Below, piece by piece: positions 3,082-9,241 of a DNA stretch of 36,900 nucleotides; position 1 is the first letter of the stretch, and each line of letters opens with the position of its first letter. The notes beneath the pieces are model-generated. The model did no database searches. It had not been told where the DNA came from and saw nothing but the letters and a program-made list of their open reading frames with translations. Source of the stretch: an uncultured Parvibacter sp. GTDB taxonomy: Bacteria > Actinomycetota > Coriobacteriia > Coriobacteriales > Eggerthellaceae. The stretch is taken from NCBI GenBank assembly GCA_947649875.1, contig CANSTH010000009.1:1-36900 (forward strand), given 5' to 3'. The position numbers were made by a program, and so were the translations under genes.

Positions 3082-3099
3082 GGGAGTCGCCGAGAAGGT

Positions 3100-3243
3100 A
3101 TGCCGTTGGAAGGTGCACTGTTGGATAGGCGTGCCGCAGAGGCACGCATAGACCGGGCTCGCGGGGACGGCGATGATCTGATGCTGACCCGGCGCCTGCC
3201 TGGTGACGTTATGACGCATCGGTGGCAAGAAGCGACCGAGTAA
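3100..3243 (+). CDS. Possible 47-residue ORF of unknown function
   Basis: A short frame begins MPLEGALLDRRAAEARIDRA and ends ...HRWQEATE, 18 nt after the tlyA stop. It is charged, has no membrane segment, and resembles no family I recognise. A purine stretch GAGAAGG is present but sits only one base before the ATG, too close for normal initiation. A hairpin (GCGTGCC / GGCACGC, 3129-3147) lies inside it. It may be a chance frame in the tlyA 3' region. Confidence 0.2.
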   Translation: MPLEGALLDRRAAEARIDRARGDGDDLMLTRRLPGDVMTHRWQEATE

Positions 3244-3250
3244 GGCCAAT

Positions 3251-3296
3251 GCGGCCAAGAGGCAAGGAGATGGGAAGGACTTGCACTCTTGGCCGC
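3251..3296 (+). terminator. 11-bp inverted repeat between convergent tlyA and the ferredoxin gene
   Basis: GCGGCCAAGAG (3251-3261) and CTCTTGGCCGC (3286-3296) form a perfect 11-bp stem with a 24-nt loop. It lies between two convergent genes, where a terminator is expected, but the loop is long and no T run follows on either strand. A second, smaller hairpin is at 3129-3147. I call it terminator-like only. Confidence 0.35.
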
Positions 3297-3338
3297 GCTC
3301 AAAATGCGGACGGTTTCAAGACGAGGGTTGGTCGAAAA

Positions 3339-4004
3339 CTACTCTGCTCCCTGCCAAGTTCTATTGCGCAGGATGAAAGCGTAGCTGGGTTTATTGCCGA
3401 CGTCCGGCAGGCGATGCACATCGGCTTCAGTGAAAGGTGCAACAAATTCGCTCAATTTGACCCTCATCTTCGAGAGGGTGATATAGTCCTTGTCGGCACC
3501 GACCATGTCTATGTTGCCGGGTCCTTCCAAGTTTTCAATGCCCTGATCAATATCGCCGAAGAAGCGGGCGCGGGCGCTGCATTGGGAAACACATTGGGGC
3601 AGTTCCCCTTGGGCGATCTTTTGCTCGCAGAGGGTACACTTTTCCACCACGCGTTCTTCTTCGTTCAAGTAACGAACTCCGTAGGGGCAGGCCATGGCGC
3701 AGAACTGGCAGCCAATACACTTTTCTTTGTCTACCTGAACAGTTCCATCTGCCAGCTTGTGGCTGGCTTCAGTGGGACAAACGGCCACGCAGGCGGGGCT
3801 TTCGCAATGCTGGCAGCTCACTGGAAGAAAGTACATTTCCAAATCAGGAGCCTCTGCTCCCGGATATTTCGGGTTCGGCCCGATGCGAAGCGCCTTTATC
3901 CAGAATGCGCCCACTTCCATCCGGTTGACTGCCTTGCAGGCAGTAGTGCAGGCGAGGCATCCTACGCAACGGTTGAGATCGGTAACTATGGCAAACTGGG
4001 TCAT
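3339..4004 (-). CDS. 4Fe-4S ferredoxin subunit of a molybdopterin oxidoreductase (DmsB/PhsB/NrfC type)
   Basis: The 221-residue protein carries four iron-sulfur cluster cysteine sets typical of electron-transfer subunits of DMSO-reductase-family enzymes: CVGCLACTTAC (C13, C16, C19, C23), CQHCESPACVAVC (C64-C76), CIGCQFCAMAC, and CTLC with a later QCVSQC. It has no Tat or Sec signal of its own, so it probably rides out of the cell bound to the Tat-targeted catalytic subunit, as known for DmsAB-like enzymes. It starts 3 nt after the stop of the catalytic gene, with GGGAG upstream (the reverse complement of 4010-4020), so the two are one operon. No NrfD/DmsC membrane anchor is encoded nearby, so the partner that takes electrons from the quinol pool is not visible. 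Confidence 0.92.
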   Translation of the reverse strand: MTQFAIVTDLNRCVGCLACTTACKAVNRMEVGAFWIKALRIGPNPKYPGAEAPDLEMYFLPVSCQHCESPACVAVCPTEASHKLADGTVQVDKEKCIGCQFCAMACPYGVRYLNEEERVVEKCTLCEQKIAQGELPQCVSQCSARARFFGDIDQGIENLEGPGNIDMVGADKDYITLSKMRVKLSEFVAPFTEADVHRLPDVGNKPSYAFILRNRTWQGAE

Positions 4005-4007
4005 TGC

Positions 4008-6905
4008 TCACTCCCTTCCCTCATAGACGGGCATCCATTCTTTGAGGCGAGCATCGGTGGCGTCGCAAATGACGGGAGTTCCGTCATCATCGCAGGGACA
4101 TGGGTTCCCGAAAGGCGAGTTTTCGGGAGTGGCTTTGTAGATTTTTACGGGGAAGGATCGAAGGGTGGATATACCCGAAGTGGGATCCTGATCGTCGGCG
4201 TACACAAGCACGTTGATTGCGCTCAGATCCCAGCCCTTGCCGCATTTCTTTGTTTCTGGGTACCACCAAGTATGGTTGGCGTTCACCACTCCTCTCTTTA
4301 GCCCATGATAGATATCTACCACTTGGCGGATCTTGCCATTCTCGTTTTCGATCCAAACCCAGTCGCCCTGCTCAACGCCAAGGCTTCGAGCATCATCTGG
4401 GTGCAGTTCCACCCGAGGGGCTGGCCAAAGCTCGCGACACCAAGGCAACTGCCGGTGCTCGGAGTGGAAGAATGTGGGGTTTCTGGAGCCCGTGGTCATA
4501 ATGAAGGGATATTCTTCGAACAGTTCTGGCGCAGAGACCGGCGTCTTGTAGGGCTCGTCGTAGTCGGGCAACGTGAACCGTTCCCATTGGTCGCCCATGG
4601 CGTATTCCATGATGGTCGACCATATTTCTACTTTCCGCGTAACGGTGAACATGCCGGGAAGCTTATCTGTGAGAGGCTTTATGCCAAACCCGGCAGGAGT
4701 GTGGAGCTGCCCCATTTCGTAGCGATGGAAGGTGCCCCAGCGTTCGGGAGTCAGCTTCTTTACGAGCCACCATCCGTCTTTTTCAAATTTTTCAGCATAT
4801 TCTTCCCAGGTATAGGGTTTCTTCCGGCCTTCTTCCGGATAACCTCGTACATTCTCCACCAGGTAGTTCATGTACTCATCTAGATCGGGCCAAGGATTCG
4901 CTCCTTCCCGCTTATTCCACGGTACGCCCATTATCTTGGCAAACCAAATCTGGAATTCCGCCTCGGTTTTGGCTTCTCCCGGAGGGGTGGCGCAGGCGAT
5001 GGTAGCCCCTTGGCCTCCAGACGGGCCTTGGGAAAGGCGCGGGAAGCTTGTTTCTAGCCAGTGAGCGCTTGGGAAAAGCACGTCCGCTAAATCCGATTGA
5101 GGCACATGCCACAAGTCCTCCACTACCATGAATTGCATTCCCTTGAGGGCTTCCCAAGCTTTGATGCTGTTGCTCTGGGACATGAAGTTGCCGGTGCACG
5201 ACATGCATCCTACTACTGGATACGGTTCGCCGGTTTGGGCGGCATTCCAAAGGGAATTGGCGTCCGTCCAGTTGCTGAAATAGCGGGTAAGGGGGAATTT
5301 ATCGACTCCTACCATAGTCTTGCGCTTTTCCCAATTGGGAACAGTGGGCTTCTTCGACGGACCTTTTGGATTCACCATTATGGGGGTGGCGGAAGCATTA
5401 CCAGCGGTGGGCCCGCGGCCTCCGGCTGGGCTGTCGAAGCAGCCGCAGATATCGCAAAGCAGGTTTAGGCATCGAATGGTCTGAATGACATTGCCGCATT
5501 GATCGGTGGCCAGCTGGAAATGGATGCCTCCGTTGGGCATAGTGGGATCAGTGCGAGTAGCCCAGGCAAGCCCTGCCTCTTCGATGGCCTCAGCTGAACA
5601 TCCGGTGATTTCTGCGGCATATTCGGGGGTGTACTTGTCAACCCGCTCGGCGTAATACTCCCATACAGGCTTTGCCTTTACCGTACGGCCGTCCTTTAAG
5701 GTGATGTCGAACTCCCCGTAGAGCGCGGGGCTTTTCATGGGGTCGAACTGCGAAGGATCTGGTAGCCAGCCATTGTATATTTCGCGGCCAGTGGTGGGTT
5801 TGACCCGCTCGTAAGGCTCGTCTTCCCACTCGCAAATCTCGGTATCGTACCAAGTAAGGCCATTTTTTATCTCGTCCCAAACCATGAAACGGTAGGGAGA
5901 ACCACCCTCGACAAGGTCGCTTTCCTTTAGAAGGCGCGTTTCGTAATTAAAGGCAGTTTCCCCTTCGAGGATAAAGGCGCCGGTAGGTTCGATTTCTTTA
6001 CAGACCAGATAGGGGGCGTTTGTCCAGCGACGGACGAACAGATTATCGTAAAGTTCTCGATCGATGACCAGCCGCGTCCAAGCCATGGCGATAGCGCCAT
6101 CGGTTCCAGGACGGACGGGTAGCCAAATATCTGCCTCTTTGCCAATGGGGGTAATGCGGGGGTCGATGAGAATACGCTTGGCAGCTCGCTGCGATACCTC
6201 GACCATGGTTCGGCAAGAGTCGTCGTAGTTGGAATAGGCGCACTCGGTGCCCCATTGCACATACACGCGATTTGGCAAAATGTCTACGTTTTCCAGCCAG
6301 TAAGAACCGAACATGTCGGTGAGGGTTCCAGAAAGATTGCGGGGGCCTTTGCAGATCTGTCCGGCTGAGTAGCGGTTGAGCGTGCCCAATACGTTGCCGA
6401 ATCCATTGCCGCAGCTGCCCCAGACACGGCTAGTGCCGGTCATGATCATGATGGAGTTGGGGCCATATTTTTCCTGGATCTCCTTGAGGCCCCGCGAAAC
6501 TAGCTCGCCCGCTTCATCCCACGAGATGCGGACCCATCCAGGGTCTTCTCCTTTTGGATTACTCCGCTTCATGGGATAGGTGAGACGGTCGGGGTGATAG
6601 GCGGCCTGCATAGATGCTTGTGACTTCGTGCAGCAGTTTCCGTTGGTTTGAGGGGCGCTTTCGTCTCCCTCGATACGCACGATCCTGCCGTTTTGCACGG
6701 TTACCCAAACGCCGCATTCGCATTTGCCGCAGCCGCGGCAAGCTGAACGCACTCGTTTGACTTCCGGCGAAGGCGAAGTCGTTGGCTGGCTTTCGGCCAA
6801 CGCCGGACTAGCGCCTATGGTAGTCGCTGCCGATGAGGCAATGCCTGCCGCCGCAACTGCTTTTAGGAAGCTGCGCCGCGTGAGTTGCCGTTTCCTCTCG
6901 CTCAT
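4008..6905 (-). CDS. Tat-exported molybdopterin oxidoreductase, catechol-dehydroxylase-like
   Basis: This 965-residue catalytic subunit belongs to the DMSO reductase superfamily (bis-molybdopterin guanine dinucleotide). It begins with a twin-arginine signal, TRRSFLK at residues 9-15, a hydrophobic stretch, and a likely cleavage after ALA near residue 37. The N-terminal 4Fe-4S motif is CRGCGKCECGVW (C56, C59, C62, C64) followed by GNCCTKSQ (C91, C92). This motif and the next segment (AAYHPDRLTYPMKRSNPKG, then DPGWVRISWDEA) closely resemble my recollection of Eggerthella/Gordonibacter catechol dehydroxylases (Dadh, Cadh, Hcdh types). The C-terminal molydopterin-dinucleotide domain includes TGSRNPTFFHSEHRQLPW. 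The start has a strong AGGAGG five bases upstream. Its partner is the adjacent ferredoxin and its probable regulator is the divergent LuxR gene. Substrate is unknown; a different catechol, another phenol, or another oxyanion cannot be excluded. Confidence 0.88.
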   Translation of the reverse strand: MSERKRQLTRRSFLKAVAAAGIASSAATTIGASPALAESQPTTSPSPEVKRVRSACRGCGKCECGVWVTVQNGRIVRIEGDESAPQTNGNCCTKSQASMQAAYHPDRLTYPMKRSNPKGEDPGWVRISWDEAGELVSRGLKEIQEKYGPNSIMIMTGTSRVWGSCGNGFGNVLGTLNRYSAGQICKGPRNLSGTLTDMFGSYWLENVDILPNRVYVQWGTECAYSNYDDSCRTMVEVSQRAAKRILIDPRITPIGKEADIWLPVRPGTDGAIAMAWTRLVIDRELYDNLFVRRWTNAPYLVCKEIEPTGAFILEGETAFNYETRLLKESDLVEGGSPYRFMVWDEIKNGLTWYDTEICEWEDEPYERVKPTTGREIYNGWLPDPSQFDPMKSPALYGEFDITLKDGRTVKAKPVWEYYAERVDKYTPEYAAEITGCSAEAIEEAGLAWATRTDPTMPNGGIHFQLATDQCGNVIQTIRCLNLLCDICGCFDSPAGGRGPTAGNASATPIMVNPKGPSKKPTVPNWEKRKTMVGVDKFPLTRYFSNWTDANSLWNAAQTGEPYPVVGCMSCTGNFMSQSNSIKAWEALKGMQFMVVEDLWHVPQSDLADVLFPSAHWLETSFPRLSQGPSGGQGATIACATPPGEAKTEAEFQIWFAKIMGVPWNKREGANPWPDLDEYMNYLVENVRGYPEEGRKKPYTWEEYAEKFEKDGWWLVKKLTPERWGTFHRYEMGQLHTPAGFGIKPLTDKLPGMFTVTRKVEIWSTIMEYAMGDQWERFTLPDYDEPYKTPVSAPELFEEYPFIMTTGSRNPTFFHSEHRQLPWCRELWPAPRVELHPDDARSLGVEQGDWVWIENENGKIRQVVDIYHGLKRGVVNANHTWWYPETKKCGKGWDLSAINVLVYADDQDPTSGISTLRSFPVKIYKATPENSPFGNPCPCDDDGTPVICDATDARLKEWMPVYEGRE

Positions 6906-6936
6906 ATTCTCCTCCTCTTCCTTGGCTTTACCCCAG

Positions 6937-6963
6937 GCGAGCTTCCCCTGATCAGAGGCTCGC
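6937..6963 (-). promoter_or_regulatory. Hairpin in the 5' leader of the molybdoenzyme mRNA
   Basis: GCGAGC (6937-6942) and GCTCGC (6958-6963) pair around a segment holding the 8-bp palindrome CTGATCAG. It lies 32 nt upstream of the molybdoenzyme start codon, within the expected untranslated leader. It could be a regulator site or an mRNA structure; function is inferred from position only. Confidence 0.3.
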
Positions 6964-7032
6964 TTTTGGGAGAACTGAGTTTCAGCATAGAAAAGGCGAA
7001 ATGAAAAAGCGCCAGACTCAGGGTCGCAACTT

Positions 7033-7116
7033 ATTCATTAGCAGTGAATCTTTCTTCTTTTAACCGAAGGAGAGAAGTGGTACCTCTGGTCTCATTTTTC
7101 TAGTACCGAAGCGGTA
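7033..7116. promoter_or_regulatory. Operator-like repeats in the divergent intergenic region
   Basis: Between the divergent molybdoenzyme and luxR genes (6906-7289) I see: an inverted repeat ATTCA / TGAAT with a 7-nt spacer (7033-7049); ACCGAAG repeated directly at 7063-7069 and 7105-7111, 42 bp apart or about four helical turns; and TACCG / CGGTA flanking AAG (7104-7116). These are candidate sites for the adjacent LuxR-type regulator. On the minus strand a -10-like TATGCT lies at 6984-6989. No match to a known operator consensus was recognised. Confidence 0.28.
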
Positions 7117-7289
7117 AAAGCCCAGATGACGACAAGTGCAGGATCGGTTGGCTTAAGATGGCTCTGAATGGATGCTTAGATTTGCTATCATCTGGGATGC
7201 TGAAGAAAAGCAAATGCCGTTGTCGATTTAGAAAAGATCCCGAGGGACGGCGGGGTGAGTTCGGGCTGACGATGGGGAGGTGCAGGGCA

Positions 7290-8846
7290 ATGAAAAACAG
7301 TAGTTTTGCGCCTCGTGAAGGAAGAGTCGATGCCCAGTTCCTATCTTCGGTTTTGGGAATTGGTTCGCTTTTGGCGATATATTCTTTCTACCGGGTCGAT
7401 TCTTCTTTGGGCTTAGTCACAGAAACTGATTGGCTCTATCTGCTTCCCTACGCTGTGGGGGCAATGGCATTCTTGTTTGCCTTTGGTCTGGCGGTGGCGG
7501 GCAGGCTGCAAGGCAATCTTCCGTGGCAGACTATGGATCTTTGCGCTGCCATCATTGGGGTGCTATCTGCGGTGGCTCTTTCTTGCTGTAGTCCCCATTC
7601 GGTCGAATGGCTTACACGGGCTTGTCGGGTGCTTTTGCGTATCGTAGTGTGCTATTTCTTCGTATCGTGGGGGTCTATTCTCTTTCGAGAGTCTGTGCGA
7701 TCCACGGTGCTTGTGCTTTGCGGAGCCTTCTTGGTGCGCGCGGCATTCTTTCTCCTTTGTGGCCTTGCGGGCCCTCAAGCGATGGCTCCCTCTGTGGTAT
7801 TCCTTCCAGCGGTGGTGGCGGTTTCCCTTGGGGTGATGCGCGAAAACTCGCTAATAGGAAACAGGGCCGCAGCGCTTCCTCAAGAGTATTGCATTGCGCC
7901 TTTTTCCGGCCGCGATGCTGCACTGCAACGTAAAGCTGTGGTGGCCCTTTGCCTCATGGTGGGGTGTTGCGGCTATCTTTTGGTGTTTGCTCGAACCACG
8001 TGGTTCGGGTTTCAAGATGCGCAGGGAATTATTTGGCTGCAGTTCTTCCAGGCTCTCAGTAATGCGGCCATCGGCCTGTTGTTCTGGGTGCTCTATCGCC
8101 GTCGCTGGAATCCTCAGTCGGTCTCGACTTTTTGGGCGTTTCCGCTTGTGGCCGTCATATGCGCCCTGCTGTATGTGCTGTCCAATGTCGATGGCCGTAT
8201 CACGCTCATCGGTAGTTTTGGAGTCGATTTCGCAGGTTCTATTTTGCTTGCAGCCACAATTCTCGTGCCCTTCTTCTTTTCCCGAAAACGACGGCTGGTG
8301 GCCTACTGTGCGCTCAACGCTTCGCGCACTCTGTTCCAAACGCTGGCTACTGCTGCGTTTTCCCTGTCGGCGGCCGTGGGGCTCCAAACGGCGCTTTCGG
8401 TGCTGATGTTGATGCTTTTGCTTGGATCGTTCGTTTTCTATATTCCTACCATGCAAAAAGCGGCTACCCAATGGTTCAGACCTTGGCGCGATGATGCTTC
8501 GGCTGATGGTGGTGTAGCGGAAAGCGAAGAGCTGCTTTCGATCCGCAGCGAACTCGACGGCCTGCGGGATGAATTGCAGACCATGCGATTCGCCGATGCC
8601 GCTCGATCTGAAGAGGAACGTTGGCGGGAATTGAGCCGCCGCTTCTCCCTTACGCGTCGAGAGGAGGAGGTATTCCTTCTTCTTGCCTCGGGGTATACGG
8701 CGAAAACGATTGCCGACAGGCTGGTGATTTCGGTATCAACAGTTAAAACCCATGTTGGCAATGTGTATGCCAAGATAGGGGTAAAGTCTCAGCAGGAATT
8801 ACTGAAATGGTTGGAAGAGGCTGCCCGCGAAAGCGAAGAGCAATAA
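7290..8846 (+). CDS. Polytopic membrane LuxR-family transcriptional regulator
   Basis: The 518-residue protein has many hydrophobic helices over roughly its first 400 residues (for example FLSSVLGIGSLLAIYSFY, LLPYAVGAMAFLFAFGLAVAG, AALSVLMLMLLLGSFVFYI appear in order), then a soluble linker and a C-terminal LuxR/GerE helix-turn-helix (FSLTRREEEVFLLLASGYTA, IADRLVISVSTVKTHVGNVYAK). This architecture is expanded in Eggerthellaceae, where such regulators sit beside dehydroxylase and other molybdoenzyme genes; here it is divergent from one. It probably senses a substrate or a membrane signal and activates the molybdoenzyme operon. Start ATG 7290 is chosen because GGGGAGG lies nine bases upstream; the frame is open from ATG 7158, which lacks a good site. 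The gene is AT-richer than neighbouring housekeeping genes. Confidence 0.85.
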   Translation: MKNSSFAPREGRVDAQFLSSVLGIGSLLAIYSFYRVDSSLGLVTETDWLYLLPYAVGAMAFLFAFGLAVAGRLQGNLPWQTMDLCAAIIGVLSAVALSCCSPHSVEWLTRACRVLLRIVVCYFFVSWGSILFRESVRSTVLVLCGAFLVRAAFFLLCGLAGPQAMAPSVVFLPAVVAVSLGVMRENSLIGNRAAALPQEYCIAPFSGRDAALQRKAVVALCLMVGCCGYLLVFARTTWFGFQDAQGIIWLQFFQALSNAAIGLLFWVLYRRRWNPQSVSTFWAFPLVAVICALLYVLSNVDGRITLIGSFGVDFAGSILLAATILVPFFFSRKRRLVAYCALNASRTLFQTLATAAFSLSAAVGLQTALSVLMLMLLLGSFVFYIPTMQKAATQWFRPWRDDASADGGVAESEELLSIRSELDGLRDELQTMRFADAARSEEERWRELSRRFSLTRREEEVFLLLASGYTAKTIADRLVISVSTVKTHVGNVYAKIGVKSQQELLKWLEEAARESEEQ

Positions 8847-8903
8847 TCGAGGCCGGGCCTGGGCAAAAGTGGGACGGGTGCCGGACAGCAAGCGCTCTCT
8901 GGG

Positions 8904-9026
8904 GAAATCGGCGGCATTCTTGCCAGGAAGGCGCTGGTGGACGCGGCGCTCCTGGCAGTGCTCGTGCTCTCGTCCATGTCCATAGTCTCCAGCGCCTACA
9001 ACCCCTTCATCTACTTCCAGTTCTAG
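8904..9026 (+). pseudogene. Remnant of an MBOAT (AlgI-like) O-acyltransferase C-terminus
   Basis: An open stretch ending at TAG 9024-9026 reads GGILARKALVDAALLAVLVL then SSMSIVSSAYNPFIYFQF. A final hydrophobic helix followed by YNPFIYF(R/Q)F is the characteristic C-terminus of AlgI-type membrane-bound O-acyltransferases. No start codon, ribosome site or upstream catalytic part is present; in this frame the first stop upstream is that of luxR at 8844. I read it as the leftover of a deleted gene. The remaining 9027-9241 holds no gene or RNA I recognise, apart from the ribosome-binding site of the next gene. Confidence 0.6.
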
Positions 9027-9241
9027 CAAATTTCCGGATCGAAGCAGGGACTCTCGAACACGCCGGGGCTGAGCGGCAAGCATGTTACTAGCGGAGCGTG
9101 GCAGGTGGCTTTGCTCCTACGGGCGAAAAAAAGCCGAGCCCACGGTCCGTGCGGTTCAAGGGGCGCTAATATGGGCCATACGTTACAAGCGCCGGTGCCA
9201 CCTGGCGTTCACAAGTCTCATTTTGCGCCGAAGGATGTCTC

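Follow-up and report, generated by a model that had tools for sequence, protein, structure and literature searches.

Catechol dehydroxylases, a bis-MGD enzyme family of Coriobacteriia, carry out the molybdenum-dependent reductive removal of hydroxyl groups from catechols of plant and host origin. Those of the Eggerthella type follow a three-subunit architecture, in which a catalytic subunit A, a subunit B and a membrane anchor C are encoded together (PMC11887054). Acetylene hydratase is the published nearest neighbour of the family, which stands clear of the other DMSO-family enzymes (PMC7028382). An amino acid identity above 30% to a characterised member has been used as the cut-off for family membership, and one of about 72% to a characterised enzyme as the cut-off for an isofunctional cluster (PMC11585353). 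LuxR activators with 10 to 12 transmembrane helices in the N-terminal part and a C-terminal LuxR HTH have been described for this enzyme family, although the paper that characterised them reports no binding site for them; the same work showed that residue 506 decides the activity of Dadh, the Ser found there in DSM 2243 being a known inactivating allele (PMC9734109). Genes for such regulators also lie divergently beside Dadh and Cadh (PMC9734109, PMC11887054).

The window analysed here, a stretch of 36,900 nucleotides from an uncultured Parvibacter sp. (assembly GCA_947649875.1, contig CANSTH010000009.1, positions 1 to 36,900), holds a three-gene cassette of this kind, with the following features:

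3082-9241, strand not applicable: tlyA-DUF711 segment holding the compositionally foreign cassette (GC of the cassette 0.52-0.57 versus 0.60-0.65 in the flanks)
3339-4004, minus strand: subunit B, a predicted 16-cysteine ferredoxin electron-transfer subunit, 221 aa
4008-6905, minus strand: subunit A, a predicted Tat-exported bis-MGD molybdopterin catalytic subunit of the catechol dehydroxylase family, 965 aa
7033-7049, strand not applicable: candidate operator ATTCATTAGCAGTGAAT, a 17-bp 5-N7-5 inverted repeat 127 bp upstream of the A start
7158-8846, plus strand: polytopic membrane LuxR-type regulator, divergent from A, recognised by its GerE/HTH domain and hydropathy

A preliminary description had read this module as catechol-dehydroxylase-like, composed of a Tat-signalled molybdopterin subunit, a four-cluster ferredoxin and a divergent multi-helix LuxR regulator, and all of these elements were recovered in our analysis. 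The ATG of A is preceded by a strong Shine-Dalgarno sequence (AGGAGGAG), and the protein begins with the twin-arginine signal LTRRSFLK and matches three molybdopterin oxidoreductase domains (Pfam PF04879, PF00384 and PF01568). The motifs singled out earlier, CRGCGKCECG (first noted as CRGCG...ECG) and GNCCTKSQ, are genuine; residues C56, C59, C64, C92 and C185 are invariant in an 11-row family alignment, all 4Fe-4S cysteines being conserved and C185 being the conserved Mo-ligand candidate. Furthermore, A has an Arg at the position equivalent to Dadh 506, and the same Arg is present in 102 of 108 Eggerthella-type rows. Among solved structures, acetylene hydratase (2e7z) is the best match of A by sequence (E=1.4e-65) and also the best fold match (E=6.8e-35, with 23% identity in the structural alignment) of a moderate-confidence model, which was built from 11 rows and whose pLDDT of 63 is sufficient for a fold match and not for active-site detail. 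The Mo/W cysteine is common to both proteins, acetylene hydratase being a single-subunit tungsten enzyme that carries out a non-redox hydration. The 16 cysteines of B are by count enough for four 4Fe-4S clusters, and its top PDB match is 2vpw_B, an NrfC/PsrB-type subunit; B has no signal peptide of its own and is thus presumably exported along with A.

Phylogenetic placement relied on two trees, one of 118 rows and a more carefully made one of 42 rows, from which pyrogallol transhydroxylase was left out (24 bits against A). As a yardstick we used genome G096, taken as E. lenta DSM 2243 on the basis of the published dadh qPCR primer sequence (PMC7028382), an A gene starting MGNLTM as in the published full-length primer, and a Ser at Dadh position 506 (PMC9734109). 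Hcdh was recognised because it is 64% identical to the gene that opens the five-enzyme cluster (published Hcdh versus Elen_0497: 60.6%). The assignments of eCadh (Elen_0515), located by counting genes through the cluster, and of Cadh, recognised by how closely it matches Dadh and eCadh, are presumed. In the tree comparison that the preliminary description had proposed, A grouped with the dehydroxylases, inside an Eggerthella-type clade (support 93/93) together with Dadh, Hcdh, Cadh and eCadh, and E. coli DmsA, NapA and FdnG fell outside. Within this clade A forms a four-row group with L003, L002 and L031 (100/100), and the next well-supported set beyond these three closest relatives comprises 17 rows, including Hcdh, Elen_0497 and Elen_0501 (98/99). 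Outside the clade come the Gordonibacter-type enzymes and acetylene hydratase, before DmsA, NapA and FdnG split off (99/98).

Pairwise identities between A and seven E. lenta DSM 2243 enzymes span 44.6-52.1% over 923-952 aligned columns. A therefore exceeds the 30% membership cut-off, and it also lies in the clade by which the family has been delimited (PMC7028382) and retains the metal ligands and Arg506. In contrast, it remains below the 72% isofunctional cut-off with respect to Dadh, Hcdh, Cadh and eCadh, the best value being 52.1%, with 63-64% for the best uncharacterised relative. The preliminary reading of A as a catechol dehydroxylase is supported; as an enzyme, A adds to the uncharacterised members of a known family. 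Like the loci of E. lenta Dadh, Hcdh, Cadh, eCadh, Elen_0497, Elen_0501 and Elen_0511, the window has a Tat-signalled A (about 950-1160 aa), a four-cluster B, conserved metal ligands, a place in the same clade and the divergent 10-12-TM LuxR found in most of them; it differs in having neither a C anchor nor accessory genes, in an A that is at most 52% identical, and in a regulator that is below 30%. The nearest loci, at 60-64% identity and in the 100/100 clade, are those on G042 C73 (L149), G098 C145 (L148/L031) and G002 C12 (L147), all three of which carry a divergent LuxR as the window does. Among them, G042 and G098 retain C (G098 also E-F-G-H), whereas G002, of the same genus, is without C like the window. 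The Gordonibacter-type enzymes Dodh, Cldh and Gp Hcdh resemble the window in being two-subunit A-B systems without an anchor, and the representative tested likewise has acetylene hydratase as its best solved relative. However, these enzymes are smaller, form a separate clade and are described as cytoplasmic (PMC11887054), whereas window A carries a Tat signal and matches the representatives tested at 25-30% identity.

The regulator bears a C-terminal GerE/HTH domain (Pfam, E=1.1e-16) and 11 hydropathy peaks, and its single-sequence model shows 12 helices followed by a confident HTH, the rest of the model being low-confidence. Judging by the ribosome site, its more likely start is the ATG at 7290, which gives 518 aa. 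This layout is that of the published 10-12-TM activators, and DadR, HcdR and CadR likewise combine a multi-helix N-terminus with a C-terminal GerE domain and are divergent from the dehydroxylase gene (PMC9734109), yet the window LuxR is only 23-28% identical to the E. lenta regulators compared. A search of 138 family genomes returned no close relative of it and one weak match (28%, E=4e-22). Deducing the substrate from the regulator, the route used for Gp Hcdh, failed, as the window LuxR is less than 30% identical to every regulator compared. The regulators of the sister loci are 25-29% identical to it, so their inducers probably differ. These values, combined with the 60-64% identity of the nearest A relatives and the single weak LuxR relative, indicate that window A belongs to a separate cluster.

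We scanned 43 non-redundant LuxR-A intergenic regions (e.g., L142, L143, L031, L169, L209, L171, and L204) for shared operator-like elements. The pattern TCATR-N5..8-YATGA was found in 14 of them against 0.21 expected in shuffles, while control spacings and orders of the same half-sites gave 3 each versus about 1.2 expected. In nearly all 14 regions the gap from TCAT to ATGA is 8-9 bases (TCATR-N6/7-YATGA), and the element mostly lies 126-166 bp upstream of A, including at E. lenta dadh, Elen_0497 and Elen_0501 among others, making it a candidate binding site for the membrane LuxR regulators. Inverted repeats of the 5-N7-5 type, located 100-185 bp upstream, occurred in 18 regions versus 4.6 expected, the largest excess of the spacers tested; spacers 3-5 and 9 were likewise above expectation. 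The window repeat ATTCATTAGCAGTGAAT has a counterpart in sister locus L031, TCATATGTTTCATATGA, of the same spacing class and at the same 127 bp distance. Since its arm sequence is unlike the common form, the assignment of the window repeat as an operator is based on its layout and location. We dropped a TACCG-N3-CGGTA palindrome at 7104-7116 as an operator candidate, since it is present in 1 of the 43 regions, its own.

A C-profile search found no subunit C up to 2.6 kb downstream of A, where the next gene is tlyA; the earlier statement that no membrane anchor is encoded thus holds in cis, A and B of the three-subunit architecture being present and C absent. The same search was applied to the sequence following all A genes retrieved and was extended to longer flanks where a case was doubtful. 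Each locus was counted once, and an operon entered the count if 400 bases or more could be read beyond B; genome-wide counts rest on genome searches and the retrieved stretches. The source genome (G000) measures 2.19 Mb at 86% completeness and has 47 matches to the molybdopterin oxidoreductase Pfam domain. Operons without versus with C numbered 9/1 in this genome, 17/0 in G001 (P. caecicola) and 19/1 in G002, so that 45 of the 47 readable A-B operons of the Parvibacter group are without C, the two exceptions being Hcdh orthologues (L167 and L206). By comparison, C is present in 7/7 operons of E. lenta and, by hand tally, in about 53/57 operons of the other genomes sampled, E. lenta included; the four non-Parvibacter operons without it (G036 L238, G060, G114, and G159) have E, F and I nearby, and mostly D too. 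In the window's own four-member group, C is absent from the two Parvibacter members and present in the two others, which suggests that it was lost in the genus. As far as these genomes allow us to judge, the missing anchor is a trait of the genus that extends beyond the window. A separate observation concerns the five-enzyme cluster of E. lenta DSM 2243 (L143-L145), in which all five C subunits share 93-94% identity, against 46-55% between their A partners; this points to homogenisation of a part held in common.

Candidates for the missing functions were found elsewhere in these genomes. P. caecicola and G002 each have one stand-alone C, divergent from a LuxR of its own and set in conserved surroundings; these two proteins share 96% identity with each other and 63-64% with E. 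lenta C. On the syntenic contig C124 of G000, the sequence breaks off within the stand-alone C, and of the 59 residues that it still covers, 58 equal those of P. caecicola C; as this genome is an incomplete MAG (86%), the orphan C could not be seen there in full. The genes, syntenic in Parvibacter genomes, are the following:

L224, 6396-7277: stand-alone C
L225, 2371-3252: stand-alone C
L226, 5051-5227: stand-alone C

There is thus about one stand-alone C per Parvibacter genome versus some 18-20 A-B operons. In addition, G000 contig C137 carries a complete E-F-G-H set, in which F is nitrate-reductase-delta/TorD-like, G is a multi-cluster ferredoxin and H is a membrane Fer4_5 protein, this H being 62% identical to that of the E. 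lenta set serving the five-enzyme Cadh cluster. The preliminary description had left the electron route open; its premise of an anchor absent in cis stands, but an anchor and NapGH-like proteins supplied in trans offer a plausible answer.

Our preferred reading, at a probability of about 0.75, is that of a horizontally mobile, substrate-inducible Eggerthella-type catechol dehydroxylase cassette that obtains C and E-F-G-H in trans. The membrane LuxR would sense a particular phenolic compound and activate transcription of A-B, probably via the 17-bp inverted repeat at 7033-7049. Subunit A, carrying bis-MGD and one 4Fe-4S cluster, would be exported by Tat together with B and would reductively strip a hydroxyl group from a catechol, the latter acting as respiratory electron acceptor, with electrons passing from the menaquinone pool through the B clusters to A. 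The stand-alone C gene would provide the anchor, and the shared E-F-G-H operon the proteins for maturation and quinol oxidation (E, TorD-like F, and NapG/NapH-like G/H). We infer an electron path from quinol to H, G, B and finally A, in which C would act as an auxiliary or docking part. The gene deletions published for Gordonibacter (PMC11887054), described below, also speak for this reading. A broader proposition, to which we give slightly less than an even chance, is that the Parvibacter group practises a plug-in respiration, in which each genome would have about 20 substrate-specific, Tat-exported A-B heads, mostly equipped with a membrane LuxR each, that would all dock on the one orphan C, itself divergent from a LuxR, and on the one E-F-G-H operon. 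If so, the import of a three-gene cassette like that of the window could open up a new substrate. Sharing in trans is weakened by one test of E. lenta accessory genes, which proved cluster-specific in that the Cadh set did not support Dadh (PMC11887054). Moreover, no homologue of the DadhD helicase, which is essential for Dadh expression, was located in the G000 stretches examined.

A strictly anchorless arrangement, in which soluble extracytoplasmic A-B would receive its electrons from NapG/NapH-like ferredoxins alone, leaving the orphan C to serve something else or nothing, is the best-surviving alternative, and we regard it as possible though clearly less probable. It agrees with the disappearance of C from nearly all Parvibacter operons and with deletions in Gordonibacter, where dadhC was dispensable while dadhB and dadhD-H were essential; in G. 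urolithinfaciens, loss of dadhC had no effect on dopamine dehydroxylation, for which dadhG and dadhH were required (PMC11887054). However, the near-identity of the retained orphan C across the three Parvibacter genomes argues for a conserved use, and C is kept in most related operons outside the genus.

Returning to the cassette with partners in trans, its substrate class can be approached through the position of A, which is on the Hcdh/Elen_0497/Elen_0501 side and not on the Dadh/Cadh side; this gives only faint hints of phenolic acids or lignans. A could also be a dehydroxylase by descent that acts on a non-catechol substrate, either another phenol or, as in acetylene hydratase, through a non-reductive reaction. 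The nearest solved relative indeed does no redox chemistry, and the closest relatives of A are only about 63-64% identical. Most members of the clade are, in addition, uncharacterised (121 of 126 clusters; PMC11585353). We nevertheless consider this reading unlikely, as A sits amid characterised catechol dehydroxylases in the tree and shows Arg at position 506, and a four-cluster B would be superfluous for a non-redox hydratase.

Apparent orthologues of known dehydroxylases, namely Hcdh, Elen_0497, Elen_0501, Cadh, eCadh (two) and Elen_0511, were observed on G000 contigs C73, C2, C34, C19, C72, C80, C46 and C66, so the organism probably dehydroxylates many catechols. The Elen_0501 orthologue (L166, C34 769-3917) is split over two frames with an internal stop and may thus be a pseudogene or an assembly error.

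By its composition, the cassette is a foreign low-GC insertion. It is bordered by lysC, asd and tlyA upstream and by a DUF711 gene, coaX, a response regulator gene and fhs downstream. Third-position GC is 0.56-0.62 in the cassette versus 0.77-0.86 in the neighbouring housekeeping genes, and reaches 0.84-0.88 in the Elen_0497 and Hcdh orthologues of the same genome; a codon-usage gene caller missed the LuxR gene and truncated A, in keeping with the atypical composition. At the syntenic site of P. caecicola, lysC-asd-tlyA and DUF711-coaX-response regulator-fhs occur in the same order with 2.1 kb between them, and the cassette is absent; this interval gave no Pfam match in the two reading frames tested. 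Different contents were found beside DUF711 in G002, which has another molybdoenzyme module, and in G024, which has another dehydroxylase-LuxR module, suggesting that the tlyA-DUF711 interval (window 3082-9241, L220, and L229) is an insertion hotspot. We found no tRNA or flanking direct repeat that would account for mobility. At 8847-9028, the LuxR stop is followed by an in-frame tail ending ...LVDAALLAVLVLSSMSIVSSAYNPFIYFQF*, which we guess may be what is left of the 3′ end of a membrane acyltransferase-like gene interrupted by the insertion.

The foreign composition, this possible tail of an unrelated gene and the absence of accessory genes in cis are also what a decaying or non-functional import, stripped of its anchor and accessory genes, might display. 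Such a fate is highly improbable, given three intact reading frames with good ribosome sites, the retention of all ligands and Arg506, and an anchor loss that runs through the genus and is no peculiarity of this locus. An ordinary polysulfide/thiosulfate, arsenate, DMSO, nitrate or formate oxidoreductase was rejected, since the weak partial NCBIfam matches to PhsA, Fdh-alpha and DmsA models are far under curated cut-offs (PhsA 180.8 versus 694 bits), the tree puts DmsA, NapA and FdnG outside, and acetylene hydratase ranks first by sequence and fold.

More than 100 gut catechol dehydroxylase clusters are without a substrate, and electron delivery to them is poorly resolved. What stands out here is the genus-wide loss of the anchor together with a single conserved stand-alone anchor, which makes the electron route a testable model. 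Where a genus has lost the anchor from almost all of its operons and kept one copy, the roles of C and of the NapGH-like ferredoxins become amenable to testing by one or two deletions, for which P. caecicola DSM 22242 offers a culturable type strain. The candidate 17-bp operator may likewise provide a handle for mapping the regulons of a large LuxR regulator family. Should the partners in trans indeed be shared, a cassette of three genes would be the smallest unit that lets a gut bacterium acquire a further phenol for respiration.
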